Below are positions 55,656-64,000 of a stretch of DNA of 64,000 nt, one piece after another (positions within the stretch are counted from its first letter, which is position 1; every line of letters begins with the position of its first letter). The notes under the pieces are model-generated. The model was given only the letters and a program-made list of their open reading frames with translations. It made no database searches and was not told where the DNA came from. The translations under genes were made by a program, and so were the position numbers. The DNA comes from Sulfurospirillum halorespirans DSM 13726 (GTDB lineage: Bacteria > Campylobacterota > Campylobacteria > Campylobacterales > Sulfurospirillaceae), in assembly GCF_001723605.1 (NCBI RefSeq), contig NZ_CP017111.1:1550001-1614000 (forward strand), written 5' to 3'.

Positions 55656-56825
55656 TTACTTGTAATTTTTAACAAAAGAGGCAATACGTTCAATGCCATC
55701 TTTAATCGTTGCATCATCGGTCGCAAAAGAGAGTCTAAAATACCCTTCCGTGCCAAACCCAATACCTGGAACAACCGCAACGCCTTTTTCTTCAAGCAAT
55801 TTTTGACAAAACTTCATAGAGTCATTTTCAATCGCTTTGGTATTGACGAACAGATAAAAAGCGCCTTCTGGTTTTAACACCGAAATACCCTCAATTTGAT
55901 TTAAGAGCTCATGCGCAAGATTACGTCTTCGCTCAAATGCTGAGCGCATGATTTCAATATCCGCATCGGCTAAGCCATTGAGTGCAGGAACCGCCGCTTT
56001 TTGCGTAATAGAGTTGATGTTTGAGGTGCTTTGTCCTTGAAAATCAACGATCGCATCAGTAATCTCTTTAATAGGACAGGCAAAGTAACCAAAACGCCAG
56101 CCCGTCATGGAGACTGATTTACTCAAACCATTGACCGTAATGGTGCGTTTAAACATATCTTCACTGATCGATGCCACTGAAGTGAATACAAGACCATCAA
56201 AGAGAATTTTCTCATACATCTCATCGGAAACCACTAAAATGTTGGTTCCTTTTAACACGTCTGCTAAAGCCGTAAGCTCTTCTTTGGAATAGACAGAACC
56301 TGTTGGGTTAGAAGGGGTGTTGAGTAACAGTGCTTTTGTTTTTGGGGTAATCGCCGCTTTAAGCTGTGCAGGGGTGATTTTAAAACCACTGGTTTCATCG
56401 GTATCAATAAACACAGGTGTTCCATCACTGTACTTGACAATTTCAGGATACGTTACCCAGTAAGGGGCAGGAATAATGACTTCATCACCTTCGTCAATGA
56501 TTGCTTGAAAAATGTTAAACAATGAATGTTTCGCACCTACATTGACCACAATATCGGAAGGTTTATAGTCAAGATTGTTTTCACGCTTCAATTTTCCAGC
56601 AATTGCTTTTAACACTTCTGGAGTACCGCCAACCGCGGTGTATTTTGAAAAACCATCGTTAATCGCCGCAATCGCCGCATCTTTGACAATTTGTGGCGTA
56701 TCAAAATCAGGCTCACCCGCTGAAAAACTCAGAACATCTCGACCTTGTGCTTTAAGGTCTCTCGCTAAAGATGTAATCGCCATAGTAAGAGACGGTGATA
56801 AAACTTGGATTCTTTTAGACAGCAT
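55656..56825 (-). CDS. aspC: Class I aspartate aminotransferase
   Basis: The 389-residue PLP enzyme has LLLNTPSNPTGSVYSKEEL, the PLP lysine in NGLSKSVSMTGWRFGYFACP and the substrate Arg near FRLSFATDD. It fits the prokaryotic aspartate aminotransferase branch (type Ib). It would transfer amino groups between aspartate and oxoglutarate and may also serve aromatic substrates. It is monocistronic and lies 79 bp from the NifE-like gene's end. Confidence 0.93.
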   Translation of the reverse strand: MLSKRIQVLSPSLTMAITSLARDLKAQGRDVLSFSAGEPDFDTPQIVKDAAIAAINDGFSKYTAVGGTPEVLKAIAGKLKRENNLDYKPSDIVVNVGAKHSLFNIFQAIIDEGDEVIIPAPYWVTYPEIVKYSDGTPVFIDTDETSGFKITPAQLKAAITPKTKALLLNTPSNPTGSVYSKEELTALADVLKGTNILVVSDEMYEKILFDGLVFTSVASISEDMFKRTITVNGLSKSVSMTGWRFGYFACPIKEITDAIVDFQGQSTSNINSITQKAAVPALNGLADADIEIMRSAFERRRNLAHELLNQIEGISVLKPEGAFYLFVNTKAIENDSMKFCQKLLEEKGVAVVPGIGFGTEGYFRLSFATDDATIKDGIERIASFVKNYK

Positions 56826-56904: not shown

Positions 56905-58233
56905 CTATTCCCATGGTGCTTTTTGAAAAACAGTTGTAAAGAAAGGATCCTCTAGAGTTTGAACGAGCTCATGTGCAAAGCTAAGGAGACCAGTATAGCC
57001 TATAAAAGAGGTTTGCAACACAGGTGAAACCTCGATAAAAGCGATTTTGGATGCAGCCGCGGAATGATAATGATGAACATCGCAGAGTAAAATATCCACC
57101 GCTTCTTCGTCAATGATCTCTTCAAGCTCTTCGTAAGGGTCGCGAATGACCATACCTTGACCTTTTAACAATTCAAAAACTTTTTCACTATCATCTTGTG
57201 TGCATTGGTAAATGGCAGTTGCTGCGATGCGAACATTCAGCTCTTTTAACATAGGAATAAATTGCCATGAGTATTTGCCTTTAAGATCGAGTAGTGCGAC
57301 TTTATCCTTTAAAACTGTGCAACAAGATTCTAATGCTTGATGGAGACTTTTCTCTTCACGCGCAATAAACTGCTCTGAAATACGCGTCAGTTTTCCATCG
57401 GCAAAAATTTCAACGATGGAGCGAATAGCATCAGAAGTTGCGTGCCTTCCATAAAAGGAGACCTCGACCCAAGGAATATCCCACATCTCTTTCATCTTTC
57501 TGGCTAAACTGACCATCGGTTTAGCCCCAATCAGGACATTGAGTTTTACACAGTGCGCCATTTGTGTGCGCTCCACATCTTCCACGCCTCCAAAGATCCA
57601 ATGGATGCGAAAACCAATGCTTTCAAGGAGCATTTTATACGCATTCATTTCATTCAGCGAGGCGTTAAAACCTATGAGATTAATGTCGTATGCCAAAGCA
57701 TCCAAAGGCTCTTTTTGCCCCATTAACTGTTGCATCAGTGTCACGCCTGCAATGCGTGCACCAAACGGAACACCGCCCATAAACCCTGCTGCATTGATGA
57801 GAATAATCGGGATACCAAGGGTTTCTTGCTTGGTGTTTATAATGCGTTCAATATCCTCACCAATTAAAGAGCTTACGCAGGTCAGATAGATAAAGATGAC
57901 TTCGGGATGAATATGCGCATAAACGTAGTTTATGCTTGAAGAGAGTTTGTCTTCACCTCCAAAAATGAGATCGTGTGCGTCCATTTGTGTGGTAAAAACA
58001 GAAGAGGGCGCATTCTGAAAAAGATGTGTTACCTGAGGACAAGTACTTGGCGAATGAATAAGATGCGCCGCATTTTTGAACGGCAATAAGGCTTGAAGCG
58101 CTCCTTCAAACGAACATCCACCAATCATAGTGCCAGGACTAAGCCGCTCACAGGTCACTTTTTTCTCTGTATTGGTATTGTGACTACAGCTGGATTCGTT
58201 GAACAGCTCTTTAATGCTCTGATAACGCGACAT
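56905..58233 (-). CDS. Solitary NifE/NifN-like protein (nitrogenase component 1 family)
   Basis: The 442 residues belong to the nitrogenase component 1 superfamily. The cluster-type Cys are at about 40 (MIGGCSFEGALQALLPF), 65 (HSPSTCPQ) and 119 (IYLTCVSSLIGEDI), and the GGEDKL block matches NifE-like proteins. The catalytic-type C-terminal His region of NifD is replaced by VSPVLQTSFIGYTG, so it is not a catalytic subunit. It starts 17 bp after the anfA stop on the same strand. NifE works with NifN as a cofactor-assembly scaffold; no NifN gene is visible here. It could build or insert the iron-only cofactor, possibly as a homodimer or with an outside partner. Confidence 0.8.
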   Translation of the reverse strand: MSRYQSIKELFNESSCSHNTNTEKKVTCERLSPGTMIGGCSFEGALQALLPFKNAAHLIHSPSTCPQVTHLFQNAPSSVFTTQMDAHDLIFGGEDKLSSSINYVYAHIHPEVIFIYLTCVSSLIGEDIERIINTKQETLGIPIILINAAGFMGGVPFGARIAGVTLMQQLMGQKEPLDALAYDINLIGFNASLNEMNAYKMLLESIGFRIHWIFGGVEDVERTQMAHCVKLNVLIGAKPMVSLARKMKEMWDIPWVEVSFYGRHATSDAIRSIVEIFADGKLTRISEQFIAREEKSLHQALESCCTVLKDKVALLDLKGKYSWQFIPMLKELNVRIAATAIYQCTQDDSEKVFELLKGQGMVIRDPYEELEEIIDEEAVDILLCDVHHYHSAAASKIAFIEVSPVLQTSFIGYTGLLSFAHELVQTLEDPFFTTVFQKAPWE

Positions 58234-58249: not shown

Positions 58250-59785
58250 TTAAAGATACTCTTCAACACCGATCTCAAATTTTTGGATTTTATACCCAAT
58301 TTGGCGGTTGCTAATGCCCAGTTTTTTTGCCGCATGAATCTTAATGCCACTGCACTCTTTCAGCACTTTAATGATCGTCTGACGCTCCAACTCCTCCAAA
58401 TCTGCCTTCGTTTCAAAGACTTTGATGTCGACATGTGTCTTTGCCGGAAGCACGGAGGAGAGGACGTGCGCGTTTACATGTAAAGAGGGAGCGAGCAGAA
58501 CAATGCGCTCCATACAGTTTTCAAGCTCACGAATATTGCCCGGCCAATTGTATGCTTTAAGCAGTGTTTCCGCATCGTTCATCAACATACGCTCTTTGCC
58601 ATGACGCCTGCAAAAACGCTCCAAAAAGTAGCGTGAAAGCAAAATAATATCTTCGCCTCGATCGCGCAGTGGAGGGGAGTGAATCGGAATCACATTGAGC
58701 CTATAGAAAAGGTCTTCCCTAAAACTTCCTTGGCGTACCATCTCTTTGATATCACGGTTCGTTGCCGCCACAATGCGCACATCGACTTTGATGGTCTTGG
58801 TTCCACCTAGCCGTTCAAACTCTTGTTCTTGAAGCACGCGCAACAGTTTGGCTTGAAGGTTTAAACTCAAATCGCCCATTTCATCCAAAAAAAGCGTTCC
58901 CTCATCGGCAAGCTCAAAACGCCCTTTGCGCATCTCTTTAGCATCGGTAAAAGCGCCTCGCTCATGCCCAAAAAGCTCGGTCTCCAAAAGGTTCTCAGGA
59001 ATGGCGGCACAGTTGAGTTTGATGTAGGGTTTTTCTTTGCGCAGACTGTAGTTATGGATGGCTTTGGCAATAAGCTCTTTACCCGTACCTGTTTCACCGC
59101 TGATCAAGATGGTGGAGCTTGTACATGCTACTTTGCCCACAATCTCCAAAACATTTTGAATCACATTGCTATGACCGATGATCTCATTTTGTTTTAAAAT
59201 CTCTTCTTTGTAGTAGAGTTTTTCTTCTTTAAGACGCTTCTTTTCATCATTAATCGTCTGATTAATCTGCTGTGACTGTGCCATCAATGAAGCAGTAATC
59301 GTTAATAGTGTCACTAATTCCTCAAAATCTAAGAGCGATTTTTGCGTTAAACTCACACCCAAAACGCCAAAGAGTCTGTTTTGAGAAAGAGCTGGGATGG
59401 CAAGATAGGAGATTTCACTCTCTTTGAGACTGCAGCTTTTATTGAGAAAAAGGATATTTTGATGAACATTTTCAATGACAACGGGCTCTAAAAATTGCGC
59501 ACACAATCCCGTAGCACCTTCACCAATGTGATAGGTCGCTAACAGTTCTTGCCGTTTGCTAAGCCCCACAGAGCTTAAGACTTCAAGTTCATTGCTCTCA
59601 TCATTGAGCGCATAATAGATGCTTTTATCCATGTAAAAATGCCGCTTCAGTAGGCTGAGTGTTGTTTCAAACGCTTTTTCGATGCCAAGTTCACTGCCTT
59701 TAAGTGCGACGGAGATTTCGTATAAAACCCGAAGCTCTTGATAACGTGGGCAATCTTTGATGGGGCTGATGCAAATCGTATCCAC
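58250..59785 (-). CDS. anfA: AnfA-type sigma-54 activator
   Basis: The 511-residue enhancer-binding protein has a GAF domain (about 20-175), an AAA+ domain with Walker A GETGTGKE (230-237), Walker B LFLDEMGDL (298-306) and the sensor R-fingers region, and a Fis-type helix-turn-helix (GIKIHAAKKLGISNRQIGYKI). The sigma-54 contact loop reads GAFTDA (277-282), where most members have GAFTGA. Two Cys near the start (5 and 12) recall the Cys-rich start of VnfA/AnfA. The start is GTG with GGAG seven bases upstream. It would switch on anfDGK when molybdenum is absent. Confidence 0.85.
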   Translation of the reverse strand: MDTICISPIKDCPRYQELRVLYEISVALKGSELGIEKAFETTLSLLKRHFYMDKSIYYALNDESNELEVLSSVGLSKRQELLATYHIGEGATGLCAQFLEPVVIENVHQNILFLNKSCSLKESEISYLAIPALSQNRLFGVLGVSLTQKSLLDFEELVTLLTITASLMAQSQQINQTINDEKKRLKEEKLYYKEEILKQNEIIGHSNVIQNVLEIVGKVACTSSTILISGETGTGKELIAKAIHNYSLRKEKPYIKLNCAAIPENLLETELFGHERGAFTDAKEMRKGRFELADEGTLFLDEMGDLSLNLQAKLLRVLQEQEFERLGGTKTIKVDVRIVAATNRDIKEMVRQGSFREDLFYRLNVIPIHSPPLRDRGEDIILLSRYFLERFCRRHGKERMLMNDAETLLKAYNWPGNIRELENCMERIVLLAPSLHVNAHVLSSVLPAKTHVDIKVFETKADLEELERQTIIKVLKECSGIKIHAAKKLGISNRQIGYKIQKFEIGVEEYL

Positions 59786-59821
59786 AGGCTCTCTCCTCAG
59801 TTTTGATGAATGGCAACGTAT

Positions 59822-59853
59822 CGTAGTATAATTAACTATACTATGATAGTATA
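59822..59853 (-). promoter_or_regulatory. Mo-box-like inverted repeat over the anfA promoter
   Basis: CGTAGTATA (59822-59830), six bases, then TATACTATG (59837-59845) form an inverted repeat with one mismatch. A second overlapping palindrome, TATACTATGATAGTATA, covers 59837-59853. The layout matches ModE/Mop sites (inverted TATA-rich arms ending in CG, six bases apart). TATACT/TATAGT words within it are the probable -10 of anfA, so a bound regulator would block transcription. Confidence 0.5.
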
Positions 59854-59876: not shown

Positions 59877-60402
59877 TCACAAAAGTGCCTCTTTATTGAA
59901 CAATTCGCTATTCGAGGCAATATTTTCTTTTGCACTGAGCTCATAGGGTTCAATTTTAAAGACAGAGACGGCTTTGCCATCGTGTGTGGAGCGATACTTT
60001 TCGATCAAACTTCCCGAGAGTTGGTGCTTATAGTAGTGTGGCGTGTATTTATCCAGCAATTTTTGAAGCACTAAAGAGGACTCTTCGGCGTCCATCACTT
60101 TATCCGCCTCGCCAAAAATGATCACACTGCGATACGCCGTATCGGCATGACAGGGAACAGGGTCGACGACGGTGCCGTATTCATAGAAGATGGTGAAGCA
60201 GACGGAAGGTTTTTGAAGCAAAATGCTCTCTTTTTTACCACTTCCCATGCCATGAAAGTAAACAGCACCCTTGTGCCATACGTAATTCACAGGCGTGGCG
60301 TAAGGGAAATTTTGCTCATCCACCATCGCGCGTCTCGCTCAAAAAGGCTTCAATAATCGCTTCATCGGTACAAATTCTCTTGGTATAACAAATTGTGTGC
60401 AT
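59877..60402 (-). pseudogene. Pyridoxamine-phosphate-oxidase-like flavin protein, frame-broken
   Basis: The main frame (59877-60326, 149 residues) holds most of an FMN-binding split-barrel domain (FPYATPVNYVWHKGAVYFHGMGSGKKESIL and a C-terminal YELSAKEN). Its first ATG has no ribosome binding site. An upstream ATG at 60402 does have GGAG and encodes MHTICYTKRICTDEAIIEAF, the missing N-terminus, but runs into a TGA at 60316-60318 in another frame. The two parts join if one base is removed near 60327, and relatives usually have a few more residues there. So it is either broken or carries a sequence error. It sits between anfK and anfA. Confidence 0.6.
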
Positions 60403-60421: not shown

Positions 60422-60458
60422 GAGGGATTTAGCTTTACATGTAAAGACAAAATCCCTC
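60422..60458 (-). terminator. Hairpin with TTACATGTAA apex after anfK
   Basis: GAGGGATTT and AAATCCCTC are inverted arms with CTTTACATGTAAAG (palindrome at 60435-60444) inside, forming one long stem eight bases past the anfK stop. There is no T tract, so it may protect the message from decay as much as end it. Confidence 0.55.
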
Positions 60459-60465
60459 TGTTTTT

Positions 60466-61860
60466 CTACCAAACGTTGAGTAACCACTCTTTGTTTCGTT
60501 TGTATTCCATATCGCTAAACAGTGTATTGGCGATCTCTTCCGCAAGCCAAATCGCCCCTGCATAACCCACAATAGGATGACGATACAATCCAGCGCGATC
60601 AAAGGTTGGAAAGCCCACGCGCACCATCGGGATGTTATTGTCAATCGCGGTAAATCTACCTTTGGAATGCCCCATAATAAGATCAAGCTTTAAGCCTTTG
60701 TTTTTGATGCGATCTTCAAGTTCCCAAAGGTCCGCATTGGTGATGATCTCCATATCAAAATCTACTTTGGATTGAAGATTTTTGATGCGCGCATCTTTTT
60801 TGTAGCCTGAATTATCATCGCCCAAAAGAAGGAGTATGGGTTTCATCTCCATATCGATGCAAAATTCCGCCAAGCCGATAACAAGATCAGCGTTTCCGTA
60901 AATAGCCACACGTTTGTCCGCTAAGAACATATGCGCAAGATCGGTAATCGCATCGATAGCAATACCACGCTCTTTCACCAATGCTGCAGGAATGGGTTTT
61001 CCTGTGAGTTGTTTAAGGTGTTGTAAAAAGGTATCGGTATTGCGAATGCCAATGGGGGTTGGTCCTATGATTGAAGGTACTTGAAAATTTTTCTCCAAAT
61101 ATTTGGCTGCTTTACCGCCCTCATAGCGATTGAGTGCAATTGTACCAATGGCATCGCCGGTACTGATCATATCTTCCACCGTCGTATCGCCATGAGAGAC
61201 TTCGCATTGCCCGCTTGGCATCAAAGGAGAGTCAAAACTCTCGATCTCAAACAGAACCGTCGCATCAATCTCCATCATTTTCAAAAGATGTTTGAGTGCA
61301 GTCACATCGCCTGGATTAACCCAACCCGTGATGAGATTGATCTTGCCATTGGGCGTATCCGTTTTTTTCGCAAAGGCTTTGAGCATCGATTCGACCGCAA
61401 CATCGTAACCACTGACCATACTGCCTTTAAAACTCGGTGTATGCACTGGAACGAGATGGACTTCGCGCCCTTCGTATTTGTCTTTTAAAAGCCCATTATT
61501 AAGCTTGGTGATAACACCTTCGATATCATCGCCAATAATTTCCGTCGAACATGTCGTAATAATTGGAATGACTTTGATGTCGGGATAACGCATTAAAAGG
61601 ACATCCACCGCTGTTTCAACCCTTCCCGTTGCTCCAAAAACAGCACTGTCTTCATGCAACGAAGAAGAGGCGATGTCGAAGTTATCTTTGAAATGTTGCG
61701 CAAACAGCATCCGCACAAACATAACGCACCCTTGCCCACCGTGAACAATGGCGATACAATCTTTGATGCCAATACTCACGTACTGTGCGCCACACGGCTG
61801 ACATGTAAAGATCGGGTTAATAATACCCGTACGATCTTTTGCTCTGAGTTCACATGACAT
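60466..61860 (-). CDS. anfK: Iron-only nitrogenase beta subunit
   Basis: AnfK is the beta chain of the alpha2-beta2-delta2 iron-only dinitrogenase. Its 464 residues start [26 protein letters not shown]; the P-cluster Cys are at 20, 45 ([10 protein letters not shown]) and 104 ([12 protein letters not shown]). The segments [38 protein letters not shown] and the end [11 protein letters not shown] follow Azotobacter AnfK almost residue for residue as I recall it. AAGGAT precedes the ATG and anfG ends 13 bp upstream. Confidence 0.96.
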
Positions 61861-61873
61861 GGTTTATCCTTTT

Positions 61874-62251
61874 TTAGTATCGTGCAACTGTCAGCTCTTT
61901 GTTGAGCGAACCGCTAATCGTGACGTAGTCAATACGTTCTTTAAGCTTTTCTATCAGCACCTTGATACTCTCTTTATCCATTTCCGCAAACCACGCAAAG
62001 CGCGCTCGAAACGCTTCAGCTAAGGAGAGGGCATCGACCCAATAGCAACGATCCTCTGGCGTCTCTTTCGCCACTTCTTCATCGCATAAAAGTTGCTTTG
62101 TTTTGCTAAGAACCCCTTCGTTTTGCCTCTCTCTATCCCACGATCTTGAGTGAAACTGCCAAAGGCAATGTTTCATAATATAATCTTCCATCTGCATGAT
62201 TCGAGCACTTTGTGTCGATTGTATTTGCATATTTACTTTTTCATCGCTCAT
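61874..62251 (-). CDS. anfG: Iron-only nitrogenase delta subunit
   Basis: The delta subunit is found only in alternative nitrogenases. The 125 residues include the diagnostic DYIMKHCLWQFHSRSWDRERQ block (split here for length: CLWQFHSRSWDRERQ near residue 30), DRCYWVDALSLAEAFR and DYVTISGSLNKEL. It supports full activity and cofactor insertion of the complex. AAAGGAG lies just before the ATG, and it sits between anfD (11 bp) and anfK (13 bp). Confidence 0.96.
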   Translation of the reverse strand: MSDEKVNMQIQSTQSARIMQMEDYIMKHCLWQFHSRSWDRERQNEGVLSKTKQLLCDEEVAKETPEDRCYWVDALSLAEAFRARFAWFAEMDKESIKVLIEKLKERIDYVTISGSLNKELTVARY

Positions 62252-62262
62252 TGGTTTCTCCT

Positions 62263-64000
<1,738 letters not shown>

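Follow-up and report, generated by a model that had tools for sequence, protein, structure and literature searches.

A NifE paralog encoded in the iron-only nitrogenase locus of Sulfurospirillum, a candidate carrier or sorter of NifB-co

The iron-only nitrogenase (anf) locus of Sulfurospirillum halorespirans DSM 13726 contains, directly behind the activator gene anfA, a gene for a NifE paralog, which we labeled NifE2. It lies in a window of 64,000 nucleotides (contig NZ_CP017111.1, positions 1,550,001 to 1,614,000 of the forward strand), and all coordinates refer to this stretch. Of the roles considered, we moderately favor that of a dedicated carrier or sorter of NifB-co for an iron-only nitrogenase that has neither AnfO nor an Fe protein of its own. 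More specifically, NifE2 may be a NifE duplicate that has specialized in receiving NifB-co ([8Fe-9S-C]) without converting it and that delivers this cluster to the iron-only enzyme, a reading we put forward tentatively. The argument builds on features read from sequence comparison, namely the ancestry of NifE2, its co-occurrence with anf genes across genomes, the selective retention and loss of residues, and the selection regime.

The gene nifE2 (56905..58233, minus strand; assigned by ORF, profile match, and residue alignment) is an open reading frame of 442 aa with an ATG start. The order on the minus strand is anfD-anfG-anfK, a NimA-like gene of the pyridoxamine-phosphate-oxidase fold (PNPOx), anfA, nifE2, and an aminotransferase gene. 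The structural genes, all on the minus strand, were recognized by TIGR01861 (anfD, 62263..63870, with the family match starting at residue 14; 1027 bits, cut-off 874), TIGR02929 (anfG, 61874..62251; 173 bits, cut-off 125), and TIGR02931 (anfK, 60466..61860; 901 bits, cut-off 854). The PNPOx gene (59877..60326, minus strand), identified by profile matches, is of a type frequent at anf loci; compared with G017, 14 nt are deleted here, which breaks its N-terminus, and the remaining frame runs from an internal ATG. The anfA-like gene (58250..59785, minus strand) encodes a sigma-54 activator with GAF, AAA+, and Fis HTH domains (TIGR01817 nifA, 473 bits, cut-off 529) and lies 16 bp upstream of nifE2, so that the 17 bp given in the initial annotation were essentially right. 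The two genes are close or overlapping in the other Sulfurospirillum anf loci read, and nifE2 is probably expressed together with anfA. On its other side, nifE2 is followed by an aspartate-aminotransferase-type gene (55656..56825, minus strand), a conserved neighbor in the anf-positive genomes where that side was read, which marks the cluster boundary.

A 28-nt palindrome upstream of anfA (59820..59847, unstranded; G017 form ATCGTAGTATAATAAATTATACTACGAT) has related forms in the other anf loci (six anf loci read). It appears to resemble a ModE/Mo-box site; in R. capsulatus, ModE-type regulators repress anfA in the presence of Mo (PMC7294313). Sequence reading also revealed, in the interval from anfK to the PNPOx gene, a hairpin whose loop is TTTACATGTAAA (60422..60458, minus strand), with similar hairpins in all six anf loci read. 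Pattern scans for sigma-54, sigma-70, and terminator signals at nifE2 gave no convincing match, and a search against Rfam matched no family.

The assignment of the protein to the nitrogenase component 1 superfamily, made previously from the sequence, is borne out by PF00148 (residues 40-427, 224 bits, gathering score 28.6). Within this superfamily, NifE2, earlier described as NifE/NifN-like, is of the NifE type: it scored 291.5 bits with the NifE equivalog TIGR01283, below the curated cut-off of 505, and 38 bits with the NifN model TIGR01285 (cut-off 327), on which grounds an identity as NifN was rejected. A catalytic alpha subunit (NifD, VnfD, or AnfD) was likewise rejected, as the positions of Cys275, His442, and H195 are occupied by G236, P404, and A159; the lack of a catalytic His noted before thus corresponds to A159 and P404 at the positions of NifD H195 and H442. 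The 3.03-Mb single-contig genome carries seven component-1 genes, encoding NifDK, a NifE-NifN pair, AnfDK, and NifE2. The description of NifE2 as a lone member therefore applies to its locus but not to the genome, where a normal NifEN pair is located about 377 kb away and NifDK is also encoded. No NifN gene adjoins nifE2 here or in the other Sulfurospirillum anf loci, and the genome has no second NifN; the ordinary NifN of the nif locus is a possible partner.

In A. vinelandii, C15 and C25 of NifE catch NifB-co at the protein surface, according to structures and mutants (PMC13128457), C37, C62, and C124 ligate the O-cluster, a [4Fe-4S] cluster, and the inward L-cluster is held by C250, Q419, R70, K252, and K357 (PMC13031127). 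C250 is essential, as the C250A variant forms no FeMo-co (PMC13128457). C40, C65, and C119 of NifE2 align with C37, C62, and C124, and are exactly the three cluster-type Cys that the initial annotation had placed at about these positions. Two further Cys absent from that annotation, C16 and C28, align with the docking residues C15 and C25 and are those we judge to matter most. The conversion pocket is altered: in the window NifE2, C250 is replaced by G236, Q419 by P404, K160 by V155, N164 by A159, I44 by Q47, and K357 by Q343. In all eight NifE2 sequences, C15, H17, C25, C37, C62, C124, and K252 (A. vinelandii NifE numbering) are kept, while the C250 position is G, S, or N. At the Q419 position the eight carry P, R, or K, at the R70 position K, Q, or S, and the K160, I44, K357, and N164 positions are substituted.

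This pattern was compared with the general loss of conserved positions. Campylobacterota-type NifE (18 sequences) have six invariant Cys, five of which are kept in all eight NifE2, with C250 alone lost. Of their 155 invariant positions overall, 58 are kept in all eight; against that background, the full retention of the docking and O-cluster Cys, five out of five, has a hypergeometric P of 0.0066. Docking and O-cluster ligands (5/5 kept) also differ from the conversion-pocket residues (1/8 kept; Fisher P = 0.0047). The pocket losses alone (7/8, P = 0.13) lie within the background loss rate, and only their contrast with the retained Cys exceeds it. Conservation of the invariant positions is best up to residue 200 (33/60) and worst at residues 321-440 (9/51).

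An AlphaFold2 model of NifE2 was built from 12 sequences (mean pLDDT 80, with residues 1-37 below 50); its low-confidence region is the N-terminal docking loop. The nearest solved structures are the NifE chains of NifEN, the best match being 9i0g_A (Z 36.9, 407 residues, 3.1 Å), and 9onk_A, a NifE of NifEN, follows with Z 35.9 (400 residues, 3.1 Å). Overall, NifE chains reached Z 33-37, with NifD chains close behind.

Phylogenetically, NifE2 forms a single clade within Campylobacterota-type NifE (100/100 support) on a very long stem and with very long clade branches. One of the NifE trees also took in a Bradyrhizobium NifD as a long branch; the grouping of NifE2 was the same in the other tree. 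This placement speaks against the earlier suggestion of a sulfur-chemistry enzyme from the wider family. A recent duplication within Sulfurospirillum was rejected since a constrained grouping with Sulfurospirillum NifE received a p-AU of 0.002, although long branches may bias this test. In the tree, which included no characterized VnfE, a NifE encoded beside a VnfDGK-like set (L194) grouped with gammaproteobacterial NifE and not with NifE2. Across species pairs, NifE2 sequences are 42-50% identical, compared with 89-94% for genuine NifE; the corresponding ranges are 79-92% for NifN (79-98% in most pairs), 86-97% for AnfD, and 80-88% for AnfA. The dN of NifE2 between clades (0.43-0.56) is the highest of the locus. 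Within clades, its dN/dS is 0.11-0.19, against 0.01-0.05 for most neighbors and 0.08 for the PNPOx gene. NifE2 thus evolves fast yet under purifying selection, which argues for a functional protein. A chance ORF was rejected by the eight orthologs, the conserved synteny, the dN/dS values, and the fact that all eight read open, one of them through an apparent start-proximal frameshift. In that genome (G022), a run of nine T just after the nifE2 start codon, where two relatives have eight, puts the gene of this locus (L044) out of frame; slippage, decay, or assembly error could each account for it. The normal NifE of G022 also lacks its N-terminus, which suggests homopolymer errors in this genome.

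The link to the iron-only system, proposed before from the single locus, held across genomes. Among 44 Sulfurospirillaceae genomes, anfG was found in 8; NifE2 occurred in exactly these 8 and in 0 of the 36 genomes without anf. It is invariably part of the anf locus, flanked by anfA and the aminotransferase gene where both sides were read. Sulfurospirillum diekertiae, S. cavolei, and Sulfurospirillum sp. UBA4058 are among the closest relatives that share this locus. In no other genome among 399 Campylobacterales was a second full NifE-like gene detected. An anf-positive genome from another family of Campylobacterales (G157) encodes anfDGK, AnfO, and AnfH but no NifE2.

A wider sample took in 80 anf loci of named genomes together with flanks of up to 10 kb; 77 of these loci belong to lineages other than Sulfurospirillum. 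A lone NifE-like gene was present in none of these 77, some of whose contigs end inside the flanks; in Paenibacillaceae anf loci, a NifE-NifN pair adjoins. A whole-genome search for NifE-like genes covered 50 genomes behind the anf loci, and in 19 of the 20 regions read a NifN-like or VnfN-like neighbor stands beside the NifE-like gene. The exception, a Peptococcaceae MAG (L198), has a nifHDKE-nifB-like cluster with no recognizable nifN. A third NifE-like match in Ruminiclostridium hungatei was discarded because it turned out to be VnfD-like, followed by a VnfEN-type pair. NifE2 used as a single-protein query against the genome contig collection gave no match, and none of the open-licence papers searched was found to describe an anf-dedicated NifE paralog. 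Since A. vinelandii and the 77 other anf loci do without it, the function of NifE2 cannot be generally needed.

In A. vinelandii, completion of the iron-only cofactor takes place within the enzyme itself and involves no scaffold, and AnfO stands guard. AnfO is frequent at anf loci outside Sulfurospirillaceae but was absent from all 44 genomes of this family, including the 8 with anf. It shields the A. vinelandii FeFe protein from FeMo-co and FeV-co, and other protective mechanisms are expected where it is missing (PMC11938142, PMC9310841). Moreover, no anfH was found at the anf locus of any anf-positive Sulfurospirillum genome. These genomes never contain more than one nifH, and the complete ones carry it at the nif locus; NifH thus presumably serves the iron-only enzyme as well.

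FeFe-co requires NifB-co but no Mo exchange, and A. vinelandii, which has no NifE2-like paralog, makes it without NifEN or VnfEN (PMC8406325). A receiver without a conversion site fits this requirement. Like NifE, NifE2 would accept NifB-co through its N-terminal loop (C16, C28), the donor being NifB or NifX; NifX binds it via H35 (PMC13128457). C40, C65, and C119 would hold a [4Fe-4S] cluster, aided by a beta-type partner that might be NifN, AnfK, or a second NifE2. With C250 and its surroundings gone, Mo and homocitrate would not be inserted, and the unconverted cluster would be held and handed to apo-AnfDGK, where the FeFe-cofactor could be completed in situ. In this scheme, the binding of NifB-co, the partner, and the direction of transfer are inferred. 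Of the functions named in the initial annotation, a carrier for the iron-only cofactor thus finds partial support, being the one that the kept docking Cys and the lost conversion Cys fit best. The dedicated full scaffold working alone finds none, with the essential C250 and most pocket residues gone, and this loss makes a Mo-type maturation by NifE2 unlikely.

Alternatively, NifE2 might sort cofactors as a decoy. It would compete with NifE for NifN and/or NifB-co and form dead-end NifE2-NifN complexes, so that at low Mo FeMo-cofactor would not be made and misinserted into AnfDGK, and AnfO would be replaced. We regard this as rather unlikely, although several observations agree with it. The family lacks AnfO throughout, a situation for which other mechanisms are expected (PMC11938142, PMC9310841); the retained [4Fe-4S] Cys, at a site that borders NifN in NifEN, are consistent with a NifN-type partner; and loss of C250 alone would yield a NifEN unable to produce FeMo-co (PMC13128457). 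However, competition for NifN requires a conserved NifN face on NifE2, and the fast divergence of NifE2 is odd for a binder of the slowly evolving NifN. In addition, some anf loci elsewhere have no AnfO within 10 kb and no NifE2 either.

Clearly less probable is an origin as the leftover of an earlier second NifEN pair, with NifE2 drifting under relaxed selection and having little or no function after its nifN was lost. The locus-highest dN, the very long stem and clade branches, and the T9 frameshift would be expected of such a remnant. The dN/dS within clades, the eight open reading frames, the five ligand Cys and H17 kept in all eight, and the strict anf linkage oppose it, and the broken normal NifE of the frameshifted genome suggests homopolymer errors. 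A regulatory partner of AnfA, sensing NifB-co or Fe-S status and modulating the activator, is suggested by the proximity of the two genes, but seems quite improbable given that the divergence of anfA does not track that of NifE2. We also know of no component-1 protein that acts as a regulator of this kind. Least probable of all is a new enzyme or full scaffold that finishes the FeFe-cofactor by adding homocitrate or performs other chemistry alone, for instance as a homodimer, for which the retained O-cluster Cys and a NifE active without NifN in another organism (PMC8809328) could be cited, but which conflicts with an inner pocket devoid of C250, Q419, K160, N164, I44, and K357 and with residues 321-440 being the least conserved region.

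That organism, Methanocaldococcus FS406-22, is a nitrogen fixer that has nifHDKE and nifB yet lacks nifN, and its NifE appears to contribute (PMC8809328); a NifE can thus act without NifN, and the case is a precedent for NifE2. In contrast to NifE2, the NifE of FS406-22 and that of the Peptococcaceae MAG, which is likewise present without NifN, are the sole NifE there and serve a Mo-type nif cluster (PMC8809328). With the NifE of Campylobacterota and A. vinelandii (3PDI, 9IAN, 9ONK), NifE2 shares the fold, C15/C25, H17, C37/C62/C124, and the clade; it differs in lacking C250, Q419, and K160, in its much faster evolution, in being unpaired with nifN, and in its linkage to anf instead of nif. 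The Paenibacillaceae NifE is also a second NifE-like gene adjoining anfHDGK, but NifN adjoins it where both were read, and its branch in the NifE tree is a distant one. AnfO of A. vinelandii and R. capsulatus possibly shares with NifE2 a role in the fidelity of FeFe-protein maturation, but is an unrelated two-domain protein absent from Sulfurospirillaceae. The carriers NifX and NafY, from a different protein family, may share with it the carriage of NifB-co or cofactor.

If NifE2 is indeed a carrier or sorter of NifB-co, it would be the first accessory for the FeFe-cofactor to derive from a scaffold, in a pathway thought to be scaffold-free. The question bears on how the three nitrogenase cofactors, nearly identical to one another, are kept separate in the cell, a problem to which NifE2 looks like a different solution, a NifE minus its conversion site. 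Confirmation would mean that nature has separated docking from conversion, two functions of NifE, and that NifE2 is an AnfO-independent fidelity or delivery factor, an added part possibly relevant to moving iron-only nitrogenase into plants. As a separate observation from the sampled loci, a divergent NifH/D/K-like set adjoins anfHDGK in Desulfosporosinus fructosivorans (L065).
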